A DNA stretch of 40,530 bases. Origin: Acidobacteriota bacterium. Its GTDB lineage: Bacteria; Acidobacteriota; Terriglobia; Terriglobales; Acidobacteriaceae. Where the stretch lies: NCBI GenBank assembly GCA_021790995.1, contig JAJYFA010000016.1, positions 1-40,530 of the forward strand, read 5' to 3'. This document shows positions 7,792 to 35,716 of the stretch, one piece after another. The stretch's first letter is position 1. The number at the start of each line of letters is the position of its first letter. The translations under genes were made by a program, and so were the position numbers. Below the pieces are notes generated by a model. It was not told the origin of the DNA. It saw only the letters and a list, made by a program, of their open reading frames with translations, and ran no database searches.

Positions 7792-8688
7792 ATGGACTGG
7801 AAAACGCACCGCATCGACGCACTGCTGGAGCAGGCCCTCGAAGAGGATCAGGCTGCGCGGGACGCAACCACGCATCTCACTGTCGATCCCGGCCTGCGCG
7901 CCACCGCTTCGGTCCTAGCCCGCGAAGACCTGGTTGTCGCCGGCCTGGGGGCCATCCCGCGCTTTCTTGAGATCTACGCGCGCCTCGATCGGCGCCCGAA
8001 CGCGCAGACGCGCTTCGAGGTCGTCAGCCATCCCGAGATTTTTGATGGGGTAAAGGCCCGCAAGGGCCAGGTGCTGGCCGTCATCCGGCACAACGCGCAG
8101 GTCCTGCTCAGTTGCGAGCGCGTGATTCTGAATCTTCTGCAGCATCTGAGCGGCATCGCCACGCTGACGCGCAAATATGCCGACGCCATTCACGGTACGC
8201 ACACTCACGTGCTCGACACGCGCAAGACCGTTCCCGGCCTCAGGGCGCTTGAGAAATACGCAGTCCTTTGCGGCGGCGGCGCCAATCATCGTCTGGATCT
8301 CGCCTCTGGAATTCTCATCAAGAACAATCACATCGCGCTTGGCGGCGGCATCCCGGCTGTACTCGGGCGCGCTCTCCGCGAGCGCCAGCCGGGGCAGCGC
8401 GTGCAGGTGGAAGTGCGCACGCCAAAGGAGCTTGACGAAGCCCTGGCCCACGGCGCCGAGGCGATCCTGCTCGACAACATGACGCCCCAGGAAGTGAAAT
8501 CGTCTGTCAAGCGAATCCGATCGAGCCAGCCCGGCCGCGTGATTTTCACCGAAGCCTCGGGTGGCATCGTGCTTGAGAATATTCGCGCCTACGCCGAGGC
8601 TGGCGTTGACTTTATCAGTGTGGGCGCGTTGACGCACTCGGCCCGCGCCGTCGACATCTCAATGTCCATCGCAGCCGAGCAGAACTGA
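7792..8688 (+). CDS. nadC: Nicotinate-nucleotide pyrophosphorylase (quinolinate phosphoribosyltransferase)
   Basis: This cytosolic enzyme condenses quinolinate with PRPP to give nicotinate mononucleotide and CO2 in de novo NAD synthesis. The 298-residue protein shows the family pattern: ILNLLQHLSGIATLT, DTRKTVPGLRALEKYAV, CGGGANHRLDL, ILIKNNHI, EVRTPKELDEALAHGAEAILLDNM split over the middle of the barrel, EASGGI, and DFISVGALTHSARAVDIS near the end. The ATG at 7792 gives the normal N-terminus, but no Shine-Dalgarno sequence is present, since a heptamer repeat array runs up to the start codon. birA starts 3 bp after the stop, so the two form an operon. nadA and nadB are not in the window. Confidence 0.96.
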   Translation: MDWKTHRIDALLEQALEEDQAARDATTHLTVDPGLRATASVLAREDLVVAGLGAIPRFLEIYARLDRRPNAQTRFEVVSHPEIFDGVKARKGQVLAVIRHNAQVLLSCERVILNLLQHLSGIATLTRKYADAIHGTHTHVLDTRKTVPGLRALEKYAVLCGGGANHRLDLASGILIKNNHIALGGGIPAVLGRALRERQPGQRVQVEVRTPKELDEALAHGAEAILLDNMTPQEVKSSVKRIRSSQPGRVIFTEASGGIVLENIRAYAEAGVDFISVGALTHSARAVDISMSIAAEQN

Positions 8689-8691
8689 TCG

Positions 8692-9561
8692 ATGTACGAC
8701 CTCGCCGCACTCGAAGTCGAATTGGCCGGCACCATCTTTGCCGGTAAGCTGCACTACTCTCGCACTACCGGCTCGACGAACTCGGATGCGGTGGCTGCGG
8801 CTCGCAGCGGCGCGCCGGGCGGTTCAGTCTACTTTGCCGATGAGCAGCTGGCTGGCCGCGGGCGTGGCGATCACGGCTGGGTCTCCGCCGCCGGCGAAGG
8901 GCTTTACGCGAGCGTGCTTTTTCGCCCGGAGATTCCCCCCGCGCGCCTGCCACTGCTGCCGCTTGCCGCGGGTCTTGCCGCCGCCAGCGCCATCCGCGCC
9001 GCTGCTTCGCTTGCCGTCGATCTGCGCTGGCCCAACGATCTGCTGATCGGCCCGCGCAAGGCTGGGGGCATCCTTGTCGAGTCGATCATCCATTCCAAAG
9101 GTCCGCCCCACGTAGTGGTCGGCATTGGCATCAATGTGCATCAGCACACGTTTCCGCCGGACCTGGCCACACCGGCTACATCGCTCGATCTCGAATCCGG
9201 GGCCCCCAGCGACAGGTCTTCGTTGCTGGGGTGGAAATCCGGGGCCCCCAGCGACAGGTCTTCGTTGCTGGGGTGGAAATCCGGCCGTCGCATCCCGCGG
9301 CAAGCCCTCCTGCTCGCGCTGCTAAAATCGCTGGAGCAGGAAGCTCAGGCGCTGGCAAGTCAGGACGCGGCAAAAGGAATCGTGGAGCGCGTTGAAAGGG
9401 CCTCCTCGTGGATGCGCGGCCGCAGCGTGGAAGTGCACGGCCCGCAGGCTTGCATCGGCGTCACGGACGGATTGAACGAGAACGGCTTTCTGCGAGTGGC
9501 GACCGCGAAGGGGATGGTCATGGTGCAAACCGGCGGCTTGCGGGAAAATATCAGCTTCTAG
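8692..9561 (+). CDS. birA: Biotin--[acetyl-CoA-carboxylase] ligase, group I, with repeat insertion
   Basis: This enzyme attaches biotin to the biotin carboxyl carrier protein through biotinyl-AMP. There is no N-terminal helix-turn-helix, so it is a ligase only, not a repressor. Visible motifs are STNSDAV, AGRGRGDHGWVS (the GRGRxGR-type biotin/ATP loop, with DH replacing the usual residues), DLRWPNDLLI with KAGGIL, and VGIGINVH. A C-terminal SH3-like domain starts near RGRSVEVHG. Between ATSLDLE and RRIPRQALL the gene carries two in-frame copies of a 14-residue repeat (SGAPSDRSSLLGWK) encoded by a palindromic 42-bp element. It falls in a loop where family members vary in length, so activity may be kept. 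The final codons and the TAG stop are part of a heptamer repeat. It starts 3 bp after nadC. Confidence 0.93.
   Translation: MYDLAALEVELAGTIFAGKLHYSRTTGSTNSDAVAAARSGAPGGSVYFADEQLAGRGRGDHGWVSAAGEGLYASVLFRPEIPPARLPLLPLAAGLAAASAIRAAASLAVDLRWPNDLLIGPRKAGGILVESIIHSKGPPHVVVGIGINVHQHTFPPDLATPATSLDLESGAPSDRSSLLGWKSGAPSDRSSLLGWKSGRRIPRQALLLALLKSLEQEAQALASQDAAKGIVERVERASSWMRGRSVEVHGPQACIGVTDGLNENGFLRVATAKGMVMVQTGGLRENISF
9194..9284 (+). repeat. Tandem 42-bp palindromic element inserted in frame in birA
   Basis: Two identical 42-bp units (9194-9235 and 9236-9277) are followed by 7 bp of a third (9278-9284). Within each unit CCCCAGCGAC and GTTGCTGGGG form a 10-bp hairpin (one G-U type mismatch) with an 8-nt loop; in unit 1 the arms are at 9204-9213 and 9222-9231. 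From memory, related CCCCAGCAACGAAGACC elements are scattered between genes of Terriglobia genomes; that needs a search. Confidence 0.85.
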
Positions 9562-20891: not shown

Positions 20892-22859
20892 ATGCTTGCG
20901 CTCCAGAATGCCGGCAAACGCTTCGGGCCGAGGGTGCTCTTCCTCGAAGCGAACTGGCTCATCCAAAACCAGGAAAAAACCGCGCTGGTCGGCGCCAACG
21001 GCACGGGCAAATCGACGCTGATGAAGATTCTCGCCGGGCTGGATGCGCTCGACTACGGCTCTCTCGACCGGATGCGCGGTATGAGCATCGGCTATCTGCC
21101 GCAGGAGGGTTTGCAGCTTGCCGGCCGCACCGTCTTCGAGGAGTGTCTCACTGTCTTCGACGAACTGCATGAGATGGAGCGTGAAGTCGAGCGGCTTGCG
21201 GCGCAGATGGCGGAACTCGATCACGAAAGCCAGGAGTTTCAATCCGTCGCCGAGCGCTATTCGTTGTTGCAGGATCGCTTTCATTCGCTCGATGGCTACG
21301 CGCTCGATGCTCAAGTGGGCAGCGTTCTCACGGGCCTCGGCTTCGACAAACAGGATTGGACACGGCAAACCGGCGAGTTCTCCGGCGGCTGGCAGATGCG
21401 CATCGCACTTGCTAAACTTCTGCTCGCCAAACCTAATCTTCTGCTTCTCGACGAGCCCACCAACCATCTCGACCTCGAAACCCGCAACTGGCTCGAGAGC
21501 TATCTTAAAAGCTATCCCTTTGGCTACATCCTTATCTCACATGATCGCTACTTTCTCGATGTCACCATCGACCGCACGGTGGAGATATGGAACAAGCGCC
21601 TGACGATCTACCAGGGTAATTACACAAAGTATCTCAAACAGAAAGATGAGCGCCGCGATCAACTCCTCGCTGCTTACCGCAACCAGCGCGAGCGCATTGA
21701 GCATCTTGAGGCATTCATTAACCGGTTCAGGTATCAGGCCACCAAGGCCAGGCAGGTGCAGTCGCGCATTAAGGAGCTTGAGAAGATCGAGCGCATCGAG
21801 GTGCCGGAGGGAGAGCCCGTCATCCACTTCAAGTTTCCCCAGCCGCCCCCCTCGGGCCGCACCGTTGCTGAAGCCGAGAGCCTGCGGAAGGATTACGGCG
21901 CAAAGTGCGTTTTTTCCGATGCGCGCTTCACCATCGAGCGTGGTGACCGCGTGGCGCTTGTGGGCGTGAACGGCGCCGGCAAATCGACGCTCATCAAGCT
22001 GCTCACCGGCGGCGAGCTTCCGAGCGCAGGATCGATCAAACTCGGCCATAATGTTGCCGCGGAGTACTTTGCGCAGGATCAGTACAAGGTTCTCGATCCC
22101 GAAGCGCGCATGTTGGACGACATCGGCCGCGCCGCCGTCAGAGTCCCCGAGGTGACGCTTCGCTCGCTGCTTGGCTGTTTTCTCTTCTCCGGCGACGACG
22201 CCTTCAAGCCGCTGGGTGTGCTCTCGGGCGGCGAGCGCAATCGCTATGCACTGGCGCGCATTCTCGTGTCGCCTGCGAACTTTCTGCTTCTCGACGAGCC
22301 TACCAATCACCTCGACATGCGCGCCAAGGACGTGTTGCTCGAAGCTCTCGACAGTTACAGCGGCACCGTGGTTTTTGTTTCGCACGACCGCTACTTCATC
22401 GACCGCCTGGCCACGCGGGTTCTGGAGATCGAGAATGGCGCCATCACGGCGTACGAGGGCAACTACGAAGACTATCTGCGCCGCAAGGAGGCGCTGGCCG
22501 CTGGAACGCCAAATGCCGGGATCAAACAGCCTTCTGCCGAAGTGGATACGCCTGGCGGAGCAACGATCCTCATCGAAGGCGGCTACGAGGAGACAAACAG
22601 CGCCGCTGCATCGTCGGCTTCCCGCGCCCGCCGCCTGAACCCGATTAAGCAGAAACAGATGGAAGACCGCTGCGCGTTTCTTGAAGAGGAGATCCCGCGC
22701 GTCGAGGCCTCCATTGCGCATACCGAGCAGCAGCTCGGCGTTTACGTCTCGGCCGCGGAAACGCAGCGCCTCACAGAACTCGCCGAAGATCTCCGCGCGC
22801 AGCTTGCCGCGCTTAACGCAGAGTGGGAGGATCTCATGCTGCAGCTTGATCTTTCCTGA
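20892..22859 (+). CDS. ABC-F family ATPase (Uup/EttA-type)
   Basis: This soluble protein has two ABC cassettes and no membrane segments. Cassette 1 has Walker A GANGTGKST (34-42), signature SGGWQMRIALAKLLL and Walker B LLLLDEPTNHLDLE. The ABC-F linker (FRYQATKARQVQSRIKELEKIE) follows. Cassette 2 has Walker A GVNGAGKST (near 357-365), signature LSGGERNRYALARIL and LLLDEPTNHLDMR. A C-terminal coiled coil (RCAFLEEEIPRVEASIAHTEQQ) resembles the DNA/RNA-binding tail of Uup and YdiF/YheS-type proteins. Family members act on ribosomes or ribosome assembly, and some give antibiotic resistance. The exact subgroup is uncertain. GAAAAT lies 8 nt before the ATG and there is no Shine-Dalgarno sequence. 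Confidence 0.92.
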   Translation: MLALQNAGKRFGPRVLFLEANWLIQNQEKTALVGANGTGKSTLMKILAGLDALDYGSLDRMRGMSIGYLPQEGLQLAGRTVFEECLTVFDELHEMEREVERLAAQMAELDHESQEFQSVAERYSLLQDRFHSLDGYALDAQVGSVLTGLGFDKQDWTRQTGEFSGGWQMRIALAKLLLAKPNLLLLDEPTNHLDLETRNWLESYLKSYPFGYILISHDRYFLDVTIDRTVEIWNKRLTIYQGNYTKYLKQKDERRDQLLAAYRNQRERIEHLEAFINRFRYQATKARQVQSRIKELEKIERIEVPEGEPVIHFKFPQPPPSGRTVAEAESLRKDYGAKCVFSDARFTIERGDRVALVGVNGAGKSTLIKLLTGGELPSAGSIKLGHNVAAEYFAQDQYKVLDPEARMLDDIGRAAVRVPEVTLRSLLGCFLFSGDDAFKPLGVLSGGERNRYALARILVSPANFLLLDEPTNHLDMRAKDVLLEALDSYSGTVVFVSHDRYFIDRLATRVLEIENGAITAYEGNYEDYLRRKEALAAGTPNAGIKQPSAEVDTPGGATILIEGGYEETNSAAASSASRARRLNPIKQKQMEDRCAFLEEEIPRVEASIAHTEQQLGVYVSAAETQRLTELAEDLRAQLAALNAEWEDLMLQLDLS

Positions 22860-22893
22860 GCCCCGCAGCCGTATTTTGCAGGAAATGCAGTTT

Positions 22894-23003
22894 TATAATC
22901 CGGATTGGACGAGCGTATAATCCGGATTGGACGGATATATAATCCGGAATGGACGTGCAATGAATCCGGAATGGACGAATCTTAAATCCGAAATGAATGC
23001 GCC
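22894..23003 (+). repeat. Five tandem 22-bp repeats at the 5' end of the AAA_14 ATPase gene
   Basis: Units start at 22894, 22916, 22938, 22960 and 22982. The first three begin with the consensus -10 hexamer TATAAT followed by CCGG(A)(T/A)TGGACG. Units 1 and 2 contain the perfect palindrome AATCCGGATT; units 4 and 5 are diverged and extend into the coding sequence, so the first residues of the ATPase (MNPEWTN) are repeat-encoded. The 22-bp period is about two helical turns, placing every copy on the same DNA face. Candidate roles are an operator array, repeated promoters or iterons. Confidence 0.85.
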
Positions 23004-24231
23004 GGAAAATGCGCTGTATCCGCGTTTTGCCGCCGGAGCTGTGGCTACGGCGCTCAAGGACACCCCGGTTATCCTGATCGATGGGCCTCGCCAGTGCGGC
23101 AAGACAACCATGGTCCGCGACCTGATGACAGGCCGCCGCGAGTTCCTTACGCTCGATGATGAGACGGTTTTCGCGGCGGCGCGCAGCGATCCGTCTGGAT
23201 TGGTCCGCTCCTCCGGCCGCTTCACGATCGACGAGATCCAGCGCGCGCCTGAACTCCTGCGGGCCATCAAGAGAAGAGTCGATCTGGATCGCCAGCCAGG
23301 GCGTTTTTTGCTCACAGGCTCGGCCAATCTGCTCGCGGTGCCCAAAGTCGCCGAAAGCCTGGCAGGCCGCATGGAAATCGTCAGCCTGCTGCCGCTGGCC
23401 CGGGCCGAAATTTATGGTCGCAAGCCGGGGTTTCTCGAAGCGGCATTCCGGGGCAGGATGACAAAGCCGGGCCAACTTCTTATTGGCAAGAACCTGGTAG
23501 AGGCAGTGCTGACCGGCGGCTATCCGGAGATGCTCAAGCGCAAGCGGCCCGCCCGGCGCCTCGCCTGGGCGCGCGAGTACATCCGCGCCATCGTCGAAAG
23601 AGACGTGCGCGACATCGCTGAAGTGGAGAGGCTCGACCGGATGCCGCGTCTGCTCCAGGTGCTGGCGCACCATTCGGCTCAATTGACCAACTTCACCCAG
23701 ATGGGCGGCCAGATTGGCTTCGACGACAAGACAACGCGAAAGTATGTGGGCATTCTGGAGCAGTTGTTTCTGGTGCGCAGAGTACAGCCCTGGTTCCGCA
23801 ACGAACTGAGGCGCTTGGTCAAAACGCCCAAGCTGCATTTCCTCGATTCCGGACTCCTGGCTGCGCTGCTTGGCATTACTCCCGAGCGCGTTGCCGCCGA
23901 CCGCGCCATTTTCGGCAGACTGCTCGAGACCTTCGTCTTCGCGGAGATCCTCAAACATCTTTCGTGGCTCGATCGCACCTGCGCGATCTTTCATTATCGC
24001 GACAAGGATCAGGACGAGGTCGATCTTGTGCTCGAAGACATGGCTGGAGCAGTAGTCGGCATCGAGGTCAAGGCCGCTGCAACCGTGATGACAAGCGACT
24101 TCAAGGGGTTACGTAAACTCGCCCAGGCATGCGGCAGCGCCTTCCAGGCGGGCATTGTGCTCTACGACGGTGAAACCACGGTTCCCTTCGGTCGCCGGCT
24201 TTTTGCTGTGCCCGTTTCCTGTTTGTGGTGA
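22960..24231 (+). CDS. AAA_14/DUF4143 family ATPase
   Basis: This is an ATPase of the AAA_14 plus DUF4143 architecture. Walker A is GPRQCGKTT (about 42-50 from this start) and Walker B FTIDEIQ (about 88-94), followed by LLTGSANLL (sensor-like). DUF4143 covers the C-terminal half, with YIRAIVERDVRDI, TTRKYVGILEQLFLVRRV, KLHFLDSGLLAALLG and a nuclease-like HYRDKDQDEVDLVLE...GIEVKAA. That last pattern recalls the D-ExK core of restriction-endonuclease-fold proteins. The biological role of this abundant family is not established. The ATG at 22960 lies in repeat unit 4; an ATG at 22993 and a TTG at 22927 are alternatives. No convincing ribosome binding site is present. Genes either side are housekeeping, so it looks like an independent insertion. 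Confidence 0.88.
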   Translation: MNPEWTNLKSEMNAPENALYPRFAAGAVATALKDTPVILIDGPRQCGKTTMVRDLMTGRREFLTLDDETVFAAARSDPSGLVRSSGRFTIDEIQRAPELLRAIKRRVDLDRQPGRFLLTGSANLLAVPKVAESLAGRMEIVSLLPLARAEIYGRKPGFLEAAFRGRMTKPGQLLIGKNLVEAVLTGGYPEMLKRKRPARRLAWAREYIRAIVERDVRDIAEVERLDRMPRLLQVLAHHSAQLTNFTQMGGQIGFDDKTTRKYVGILEQLFLVRRVQPWFRNELRRLVKTPKLHFLDSGLLAALLGITPERVAADRAIFGRLLETFVFAEILKHLSWLDRTCAIFHYRDKDQDEVDLVLEDMAGAVVGIEVKAAATVMTSDFKGLRKLAQACGSAFQAGIVLYDGETTVPFGRRLFAVPVSCLW

Positions 24232-24257
24232 CCGGGCGCTGCTCGATTTCCATCGTG

Positions 24258-33991: not shown

Positions 33992-35716
33992 TTAGTGGAC
34001 AGCGCCCGGGCCGGGCCCCTCACCGGGACGGTTCTTGCTCAGGAGAAATGCCAGCGCCACCAGAACGAGTGAGACCCAGGAAAGTTCCATGTAGACATCC
34101 TGATAGCCCTGCGTCTGCGCCTGCTGGTTGAGCTGCATGTAGACCTGCGCCAGCGCCATGTGGCTTGCGTTGGCCGCGCCGAAGGAGTTGCCCAGAAAGC
34201 CGGACAGCGCCCGCGTGTGCTGATCGAAGGCGGGAGTTCCCGGCGTCATGGCCTGCTGCAGGTGCTGCTGGTGCCAGAGAGAGCGGCTGGTGACCTGCGC
34301 GTTGGTGACGGCGATCAGGATGGATCCGCCGATGTTGCGCACGAAGTTGATGAGGCCGGCCACCTGATTGCTCTGCTCCTTCGGCATGCCCACGTAGGCC
34401 GCGTTGGTGATGGAGATGAAACAGAACGGCAGGGGCATCATCTGCACCACGCGCAGCCACGACGCCTCCGCAAAACTCATCTGGAGATTGGTGACATGGG
34501 CCGCGTAGCGGAAGGTGATGAAGAGCATGGTGAAGCCAAGGGCGGCGAGCCAGCGCGCGGCAACCTTCCCCGTGGCAAAGCCGGCGAAGGGCATGACGAA
34601 CAGCAGCGCAACACCGCCGGCGGTCAAGGCCAGGCCGGCCGTGGTGGCGTTGTAGCCGAGCAGTTGCTGCGTGAACTGCGGCTGCAGAACGGTGTTGGCG
34701 TTGAGCACGCCGCCCACCAGCAGCATCAGGAAGCAGCAGATGGCAAAGTTCCTGAAGCGGAAGAGACGCAGGTTGATGAGCGGGTCCTTCTGGCGCCACT
34801 CCCAGACGATGAGGCCGATCATGCCAATGGCAAAGAGAAGGCAGAAGACGCGGATGAAGTCCGAGGCGAACCAGTCGTTCTCTTCGCCCTTGTCGAGCAT
34901 GATCTGCAGGCCGCCCATGGCCAGGGTCAGAAAAGCCAGACCCATGTAGTCCATATTGCGCAGGCGCGAGGGATCGGCCTTGATCCATGGCGGATCTTCG
35001 ACCATGCGCGTTACCAGCAGAAAGGCCAGGATGCCGACGGGGATGTTGATGAAGAAGATCCAGCGCCAGGAGAAGTTGTCGGTGATCCAGCCGCCCAGCG
35101 TGGGTCCAATCGAAGGCGCGAGCACGGCGACCAGTCCGTAGAGAGCAAAGGCCTGGCCGCGCTTGTGGGGCTCGAAGGAGTCGGCCATGATGGCCTGCGC
35201 CATCGGCTGCATCCCGCCACCGAAGGCGCCCTGCAACACGCGGCACACCAACAGGATGGTGAGTGATGGCGCCGCGCCACAAAAGAAGCTCGCAATGGTG
35301 AAGCCCGTGATGCAGAGAGTAAAAAAGTTGCGGCGGCCCATCAAAGAGCTGGCCCAGCCGCCCAGTGGCAGCACAATGGCGTTTGAGACCAGGTAGCTGG
35401 TGAGCACCCATGTGGCCTCGTCGGTGCTGGCGCCGAGCGCGCCTCCGATGTGCGGCAGGGCGACATTGGCGATGGAGGTGTCGAGCACCTCCATGAATGC
35501 CCCCAGCGCCACCGTCATGGCGATGAGCCAGGGATTGACACGGGGCTTCCAGTGGTCGTGGGCGGAAAGATCGGGCGAAAGATCGGGCGAAAGATCGGGC
35601 GAAAGATCGGGATTGACCGCCGTCGCCGGGAGATTGCCGGGGTTTGCGCCTGCCAGTGCACGCACGCCCTCACGGCCTGATCGCGGCGCGGGCAGTGTGG
35701 CGTCGATCGCTGACAA
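33992..35716 (-). CDS. DHA2-family MFS multidrug exporter, EmrB/QacA-like
   Basis: This is a 14-helix MFS exporter that uses proton antiport. Conserved signs are MEVLDTSIANVALPHI (motif D1 of the 14-TM family), VLTSYLVSNAIVLPLGGW, LASSLMGRRNFF-like loop, LQGAFGGGMQPMAQAIM, GPTLGGWITDNFSWRWIFFINIPVG (motif C and beyond, listed in pieces here) and INFVRNIGGSI. The N-terminus before helix 1 has the repeat NPDLSPDLSPDLSPDLS encoded by a 12-bp tandem repeat (35565-35611), so this cytoplasmic tail can vary in length without a frameshift. The start is TTG, supported by AGGAGA 7 nt upstream. No EmrA-type adaptor gene is adjacent. Substrate unknown. Confidence 0.92.
   Translation of the reverse strand: MSAIDATLPAPRSGREGVRALAGANPGNLPATAVNPDLSPDLSPDLSPDLSAHDHWKPRVNPWLIAMTVALGAFMEVLDTSIANVALPHIGGALGASTDEATWVLTSYLVSNAIVLPLGGWASSLMGRRNFFTLCITGFTIASFFCGAAPSLTILLVCRVLQGAFGGGMQPMAQAIMADSFEPHKRGQAFALYGLVAVLAPSIGPTLGGWITDNFSWRWIFFINIPVGILAFLLVTRMVEDPPWIKADPSRLRNMDYMGLAFLTLAMGGLQIMLDKGEENDWFASDFIRVFCLLFAIGMIGLIVWEWRQKDPLINLRLFRFRNFAICCFLMLLVGGVLNANTVLQPQFTQQLLGYNATTAGLALTAGGVALLFVMPFAGFATGKVAARWLAALGFTMLFITFRYAAHVTNLQMSFAEASWLRVVQMMPLPFCFISITNAAYVGMPKEQSNQVAGLINFVRNIGGSILIAVTNAQVTSRSLWHQQHLQQAMTPGTPAFDQHTRALSGFLGNSFGAANASHMALAQVYMQLNQQAQTQGYQDVYMELSWVSLVLVALAFLLSKNRPGEGPGPGAVH
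35565..35611 (-). repeat. 12-bp tandem repeat in the exporter N-terminus
   Basis: Nearly four copies of GAAAGATCGGGC (35565, 35577, 35589, 35601 partial) encode repeated DLSP in the cytoplasmic tail. In-frame copy-number change is possible. Confidence 0.85.

Follow-up and report, generated by a model that had tools for sequence, protein, structure and literature searches.

The described system closest to the locus analysed here is PDC-S01, a phage-defence candidate of the same PADLOC family, which combines the Pfam domains AAA_14 and DUF4143. In its accessible text, PMC12988326 counts PDC-S01 as the fourth most common defence across prokaryotes and gives validation as pending for most defence candidates of its kind, and by the accessible text of PMC13356809 no individual locus is more frequent than it in rumen genomes. 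These portions of the two papers hold no mention of a direct-repeat operator or of a DNA-binding role for PDC-S01, and the corresponding portion of PMC11514479 treats other PDCs. For the Thermus AAA_14/DUF4143 gene TT_P0211, the accessible part of PMC4406477 lists a fold change of 6.6 between plasmid-bearing and plasmid-free strains. We found no published account of the repeats described below or of a PDC-S01 mechanism in a search whose reach ended short of most subscription papers and of all bioRxiv preprints.

In the operators of toxin-antitoxin systems and phage repressors, a DNA-binding product covers its own promoter via repeated sites, and plasmid iterons are direct repeats of about 22 bp. 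The unit described here lies in the genome of an Acidobacteriota bacterium, within a stretch of 40,530 nucleotides (contig JAJYFA010000016.1) that we call the window. What sets it apart from PDC-S01 as presented in those portions of the literature is a putative direct-repeat operator. Unlike the toxin-antitoxin and phage-repressor systems it consists of one gene, for an AAA+ protein with a predicted winged helix and a nuclease-like end, and where the ATPase family has arrays, their repeats are direct and mostly spaced by two or three turns of the helix. The combination of AAA+ and winged helix is shared with Orc1/Cdc6 (fold match 2qby), to which the similarity is partial. A plasmid Rep-iteron system would bring a replication gene with it; profile scans of four neighbours in the window detected no replication gene or initiator beside the array.

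The repeat array and its gene

Five direct-repeat units, each exactly 22 bp long, begin at 22894, 22916, 22938, 22960 and 22982 on the forward strand (22894-23003), four of them good and the fifth decayed, just as the original prediction had placed five such units at the ATPase gene. We propose this array, whose period recurs in relatives, as a private operator. Its core is TCCGGAWTGGACG: cores 1 (22899-22911) and 2 (22921-22933) read TCCGGATTGGACG, cores 3 (22943-22955) and 4 (22965-22977) read TCCGGAATGGACG, and the decayed core 5 (22987-22999), which contains the likely start codon, reads TCCGAAATGAATG. TATAAT heads units 1-3 and AATCCGGATT lies within units 1 and 2, both as first reported from the sequence. 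The array had also been thought to begin at the end of the ABC-F gene; its first unit lies 34 bases past the ABC-F stop (22859). Tandem Repeats Finder scores the array at 101 for period 22 and at 125 for period 44. Two other tandem repeats of the window are found at 9194-9284 (42 bp, 2.2 copies, 100% matches) and at 35560-35611 (12 bp, 4.2 copies, 97%).

The window array is unique in its genome. All four copies of the 15-mer AATCCGGAWTGGACG in the 4.15-Mb assembly fall in the array, with none for the reversed control. Allowing up to two mismatches adds 17 matches, one inside the array and 16 elsewhere (reversed control 1), and across the whole assembly none of these 16 scattered matches lies within 100 bp of another.

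The ATPase gene (22993-24231, forward strand) encodes an AAA_14/DUF4143 protein of 412 aa assigned to PDC-S01 by PADLOC, in a family that we take to be COG1373. The protein matches the family profiles PF13635 (1.7e-48) and PF13173 (1.2e-23) and, across residues 7-412, PADLOC model PDLC04790 (1.4e-171); PDC-S01 models were likewise matched by all nine array-bearing relatives scanned. Earlier in-frame starts exist at 22960 and 22927. The start is most likely the ATG at 22993 inside unit 5, because eight close relatives (L009, L010, L038-L040 and L070-L072) have an ATG that fits as start inside their last unit (TCCGAAATGGCCGAC and similar). With this start the array would be almost wholly non-coding, and a change in copy number would therefore leave the frame intact. 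The idea that a change in copy number could switch the frame finds no support.

The locus sits between the ABC-F gene (20892-22859), its upstream neighbour, and a PEP carboxylase gene. Array and gene occupy one segment (22860-24232, forward strand), which is missing where ABC-F adjoins PEP carboxylase. This junction was compared in 30 loci, one of which is the window itself. Among the 29 relatives, six lack the segment and have ABC-F and PEP carboxylase adjacent (aligned at base level for one of the six, L182), seven others hold 600-1000 bp of different sequence, and the remaining 16 have no ABC-F within the stretch examined. An unsystematic look noticed no transposase or target duplication around this segment. 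The junction varies among L201, L184, L185 and L197, being empty, filled with other sequence or, in L201, occupied by an additional 5' fragment of the carboxylase gene.

Conservation of the array in relatives

Of the 25 relatives that share at least 43% identity with the window protein, 20 have a significant array. Lack of the repeats in close orthologues had been named as an outcome that would speak against a repeat-plus-ATPase unit; close relatives carry the arrays, in both Acidobacteria and Proteobacteria, and the association proves real and wide among relatives. Among the first homologues fetched above 50% identity, ten loci (L038-L047) have 22-bp TCCNNNNTNGACG arrays; they come from Acidobacteria, beta- and gamma-Proteobacteria and one organism named only as Proteobacteria. 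The nitrospiral L048 (49% identity) has one unit, and L050, a partial gene, was left out of the judgement. In nearly all array-bearing loci inspected the array lies just before or at the start of the ATPase gene. On a Pseudomonas mendocina plasmid (L235) the units of the 22-bp array are more uniform (ACTACAGATTCCGGTATT), and the array is set at an unusually large distance, about 180-240 bp, upstream of the ATPase.

Units were located by TCCNNNNTNGACG with at most one mismatch, a rule that builds in the conservation of the fixed letters and leaves spacing and spacer as free results. In 23 loci, which have between 2 and 8 units wherever units were located, neighbouring units are 22 bp apart in 60 of 61 cases. 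Sixteen of the 60 come from seven loci whose retrieval pattern itself required one 22-bp spacing, and the other sixteen loci give 44 of 44. The single exception is a spacing of 17 to a weak match at an array edge; L048 has no units by this rule. Across the 23 loci the spacer between cores carries little sequence information. Since the 22-bp period is constant while the spacer is nearly uninformative, the pattern points to selection on spacing. These spacings support protein binding at a period of two helical turns, as had been suggested for the window, although the binding itself is something we infer.

A further 26 loci were drawn from viral contigs (10) and from 50 listed plasmid records (16). 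With a score written after 23 of these 26 had already been inspected, lag 22 was the top of 26 lags at p <=0.02 in all 22 loci with at least 43% identity, and it was significant and top in none of the four loci below 38% identity. L211 and L212 have helix and array in common, and L221 has three units identical to those of L091 from the earlier loci.

Arrays in the wider DUF4143 family

From 148 ORF matches, 116 distinct proteins with Walker A were retained, 112 of them with enough upstream DNA, and their upstream regions were tested against dinucleotide shuffles. By a single-window score at p 0.01, 39 of the 112 family regions carry an array, compared with 7 of 205 regions taken from elsewhere in those loci. 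A summed score, chosen after this cruder first result and applied to the same 112 regions, identifies an array in 58 of 112, compared with 10 of 175 control regions lying upstream of other genes (Fisher p 2e-19). Controls had scored in 7 of 180 at first, and the five regions that held the ATPase's own array were then removed; for the L063 control region, the array was judged to be the ATPase's own from position and lag. Three of the ten scoring controls have lags 22 or 32. Four loci (L068, L071, L072 and L075) were fetched by array pattern, three of which pass, and excluding these four gives 55 of 108; L096, L097, L099 and L100 come from genomes picked by array pattern. By the summed score against shuffles, a significant array is absent from 54 of the 112 family upstream regions. 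The counts by identity to the window protein are 20 of 25 at 43% or more, as above, 5 of 27 at 30-43% and 33 of 60 below 30%. Chance as the origin of the arrays was considered and is ruled out by the reversed-pattern controls and the shuffles.

Two and three helical turns dominate the array periods of the family. Of the 58 significant lags, 35 are 22-23, 16 are 31-34 and seven are others, and the more distant relatives often show arrays with a 23-bp or 31-34-bp period and a different sequence. Repeats are specific to clades, with TTTCAATTGGTCG in alphaproteobacteria and CGCCAACTCTCCAAGT and CGCCATTTATTGTAGT in Bacteroidales. The second DUF4143 ATPase of the window genome (L002) has its own, different 31-bp array. 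One Bacteroidales genome holds 19 DUF4143 matches, 13 of which have an array at p <=0.015; these repeats differ from each other, and several of them adjoin a promoter element of the TTTGCA type. Motif similarity climbs with protein identity above 45% among 53 arrays, six of which have p >0.05 and up to 0.2 (Spearman 0.17 over all pairs).

In L127, L145 and L158 some units of 32-34-bp period hold inverted repeats, and operators of that class may be dyads. In the Thermus region read, where we presume TT_P0211 to be TT_RS11170, the ATPase L209 (14854-16074, reverse strand) has an upstream inverted repeat, TGAATGA-CTA-TCATTCA, which was recognised by eye, and lacks a direct array. A lag-22 array is present, however, in a second Thermus relative, L234.

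Covariation between the recognition helix and the repeat

In the AlphaFold2 model of the window ATPase (pLDDT 91.4, pTM 0.91), the helices and strands between the AAA+ and the nuclease-like parts are consistent with a winged helix. The predicted recognition helix spans residues 245-257 (23725-23763, forward strand). Among 312 variable columns compared over 39 loci, residue 246 is the best predictor of core positions 1-2 of the repeat: Lys246 goes with CC in 26 of 26 loci and Val or Ile246 with TT in 13 of 13, by a scoring function that was written after inspection of 23 of the 26 further loci and favours CC or TT at these positions by design. These counts ignore kinship, the sequences share ancestry and the counts are not independent; for L226, L231, L232 and L230 we assigned the left half of the repeat by hand, for L211, L214, L210 and L046 we restated it as found, and L041 and L048 have one usable unit each.

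Within the CC class (26 loci), core position 3 is best predicted by residues 249 and 245, first and second of 306 columns. Arg249 goes with G in 12 of 12 loci, Gln249 with A or T in 9 of 9 and Lys249 with G once; the exceptions are Ala249, paired with G in one locus and with C in another, Gly249, paired with C, and Asp249 (L068), paired with G. Arg-guanine and Gln-adenine are standard protein-DNA contacts. The rule for Arg and Gln at residue 249 does not extend beyond the CC class: among TT-class loci Gln249 is paired with C (7) or A (3), and Arg249 is paired once with C. For position 3 over all 39 loci residue 245 ranks first and residue 249 sixth.

A non-redundant set of 20 loci was obtained by dropping the eight hand-set or restated loci, those with at most one unit and those redundant at 80% identity or more. 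In this set residue 246 again ranks first and residue 245 first, and residue 249 is tied first among the 12 CC-class loci and ranks 33rd for position 3 over all 20. Columns outside the helix also score high, namely 393, 25 and 213, and 341 for position 3, as shared ancestry would give.

The contacts proposed from this covariation all fall in the left half of the repeat core, with none assigned to the right half. Because helix residues 246, 245 and 249 best predict this left half, we think it very probable that the ATPase binds its own repeats. Two features expected of an autorepressor with its own operator are found, in that residues of the putative DNA-binding domain track the operator and repeated sites lie over the gene's own start region, conserved in relatives. 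The explanation that we favour as likely, judging from these sequence patterns, is that the ATPase binds its own repeats over its own promoter as an autorepressor.

Nuclease-like region and related folds

The Walker A motif GPRQCGKT was placed at residues 31-38 by alignment (23083-23106, forward strand). The nuclease-like region of DUF4143 (23926-24072, forward strand) contains E312, D344, E358 and K360, which are invariant in 36 of 36 aligned sequences and suggest that the DUF4143 end forms a PD-(D/E)XK nuclease site. Fold matches in the PDB include the archaeal ATPase PABY2304 (2qen), RuvB, clamp loaders and Cdc6/Orc1 and, weakly, the Can2/Card1 nucleases, with a TM-score by query length of at most 0.43 among the matches listed.

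The likeness to Cdc6/Orc1 and RuvB, the invariant nuclease-like residues and the resemblance of the 22-bp direct repeats to plasmid iterons would all suit a second explanation, by which the ATPase binds the repeats and the array serves, as origin boxes and iterons do, as an assembly, loading or target site from which the protein would act on DNA, for example in nuclease licensing or replicon control, and transcription would be affected only as a by-product. We regard this as unlikely, given that the array lies so consistently at the gene's own start, the more distant array of L235 apart, and that the four scanned neighbours include no replication gene.

Arrays away from the ATPase

A two-unit pattern was searched in 399 genomes of the class and matched nine, including the window's own (reversed control 0). 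In the other eight genomes, four arrays precede an ATPase (47-70% identity), three precede other genes and one lies inside a coding sequence, which looks like chance. The three orphan 22-bp arrays stand before vapBC (L066), a TOTE-primase-like fragment (L067) and xis-int/hipBA (L069), all named from translations. Of the three genomes with these orphan arrays, G368 (81% complete) has only a distant ATPase match, and G104 (99%) and G346 (77%) yield none at E 1e-20 or better. Repeats without any ATPase had been foreseen as contrary evidence. They occur in a minority, three of eight genomes, with four of the eight arrays before an ATPase, and these arrays without a close ATPase are the main evidence against a strict pairing.

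The three orphan arrays would agree with a different host regulator that binds the repeats and has the ATPase as one of its targets. Such a regulator would have to account for the different repeats of paralogues within one genome and for the recognition helix of the ATPase itself being the best predictor of the repeat's left half, and we consider it quite improbable. Least probable of all are stacked promoters or a phase-variation switch by copy number: three window units begin with TATAAT and copy number ranges from 2 to 8 between relatives, but only 14 units, a minority, have TATAAT in front of them, spread over 9 of 23 loci, alphaproteobacterial arrays read TTTCAATTGGTCG, the array precedes the likely start and leaves the frame unaffected, and two Agrobacterium plasmid copies have equal unit numbers, four each, so that the stacked promoters first suggested for the window are not supported.

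A pattern search also retrieved 11 viral contigs. Seven represent one phage family with two units inside a coding sequence, two have units antisense in a dnaN-like gene and one other is L084. We take these for probable chance matches. A phage contig, L065, has two exact window-motif units on the reverse strand (8531-8567), in a gene near terminase genes.

Proposed mechanism and implications

Under autorepression, the gene would be a one-protein, self-regulated unit made up of an AAA+ domain, a winged helix and the nuclease-like DUF4143 end. The winged helix would bind the 22-bp repeats upstream of its own gene, and the fixed spacing of two turns would line up the bound protomers along the same side of the double helix, so that an AAA+ oligomer could assemble on the array. 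Such an oligomer would cover promoter and start codon and thereby repress the gene. Repression would be relieved, perhaps by invading DNA, and the ATPase level would rise. Each lineage, and each array-bearing paralogue in one many-copy genome, appears to have its own repeat sequence, which in the window's clade would be matched to its own recognition helix. With a private repeat for each copy, the copies therefore need not cross-talk.

We also put forward, tentatively and as rather doubtful, a wider reading in which PDC-S01 proteins are self-addressed nuclease-ATPases. Every copy of the gene would have a private address, an array spaced by two or three turns, for its own winged helix to read, and this array would act as a lock and a sensor at once. 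The AAA+ assembly might then be drawn off the array by invading or damaged DNA, the gene would be derepressed and the nuclease would act. With such addresses, many copies could exist side by side in a genome, and up to 19 DUF4143 matches are seen in one.

If autorepression through a private operator is correct, the consequences would reach beyond the window. PDC-S01 is among the most abundant families of defence candidates, as far as the accessible parts of PMC12988326 and PMC13356809 indicate. A private operator read by a known helix would allow binding sites to be predicted and a specificity code of two or three residues to be drawn up. The promoter array could serve as a reporter for the releasing signal, and the family might offer DNA-binding modules that are insulated from one another.
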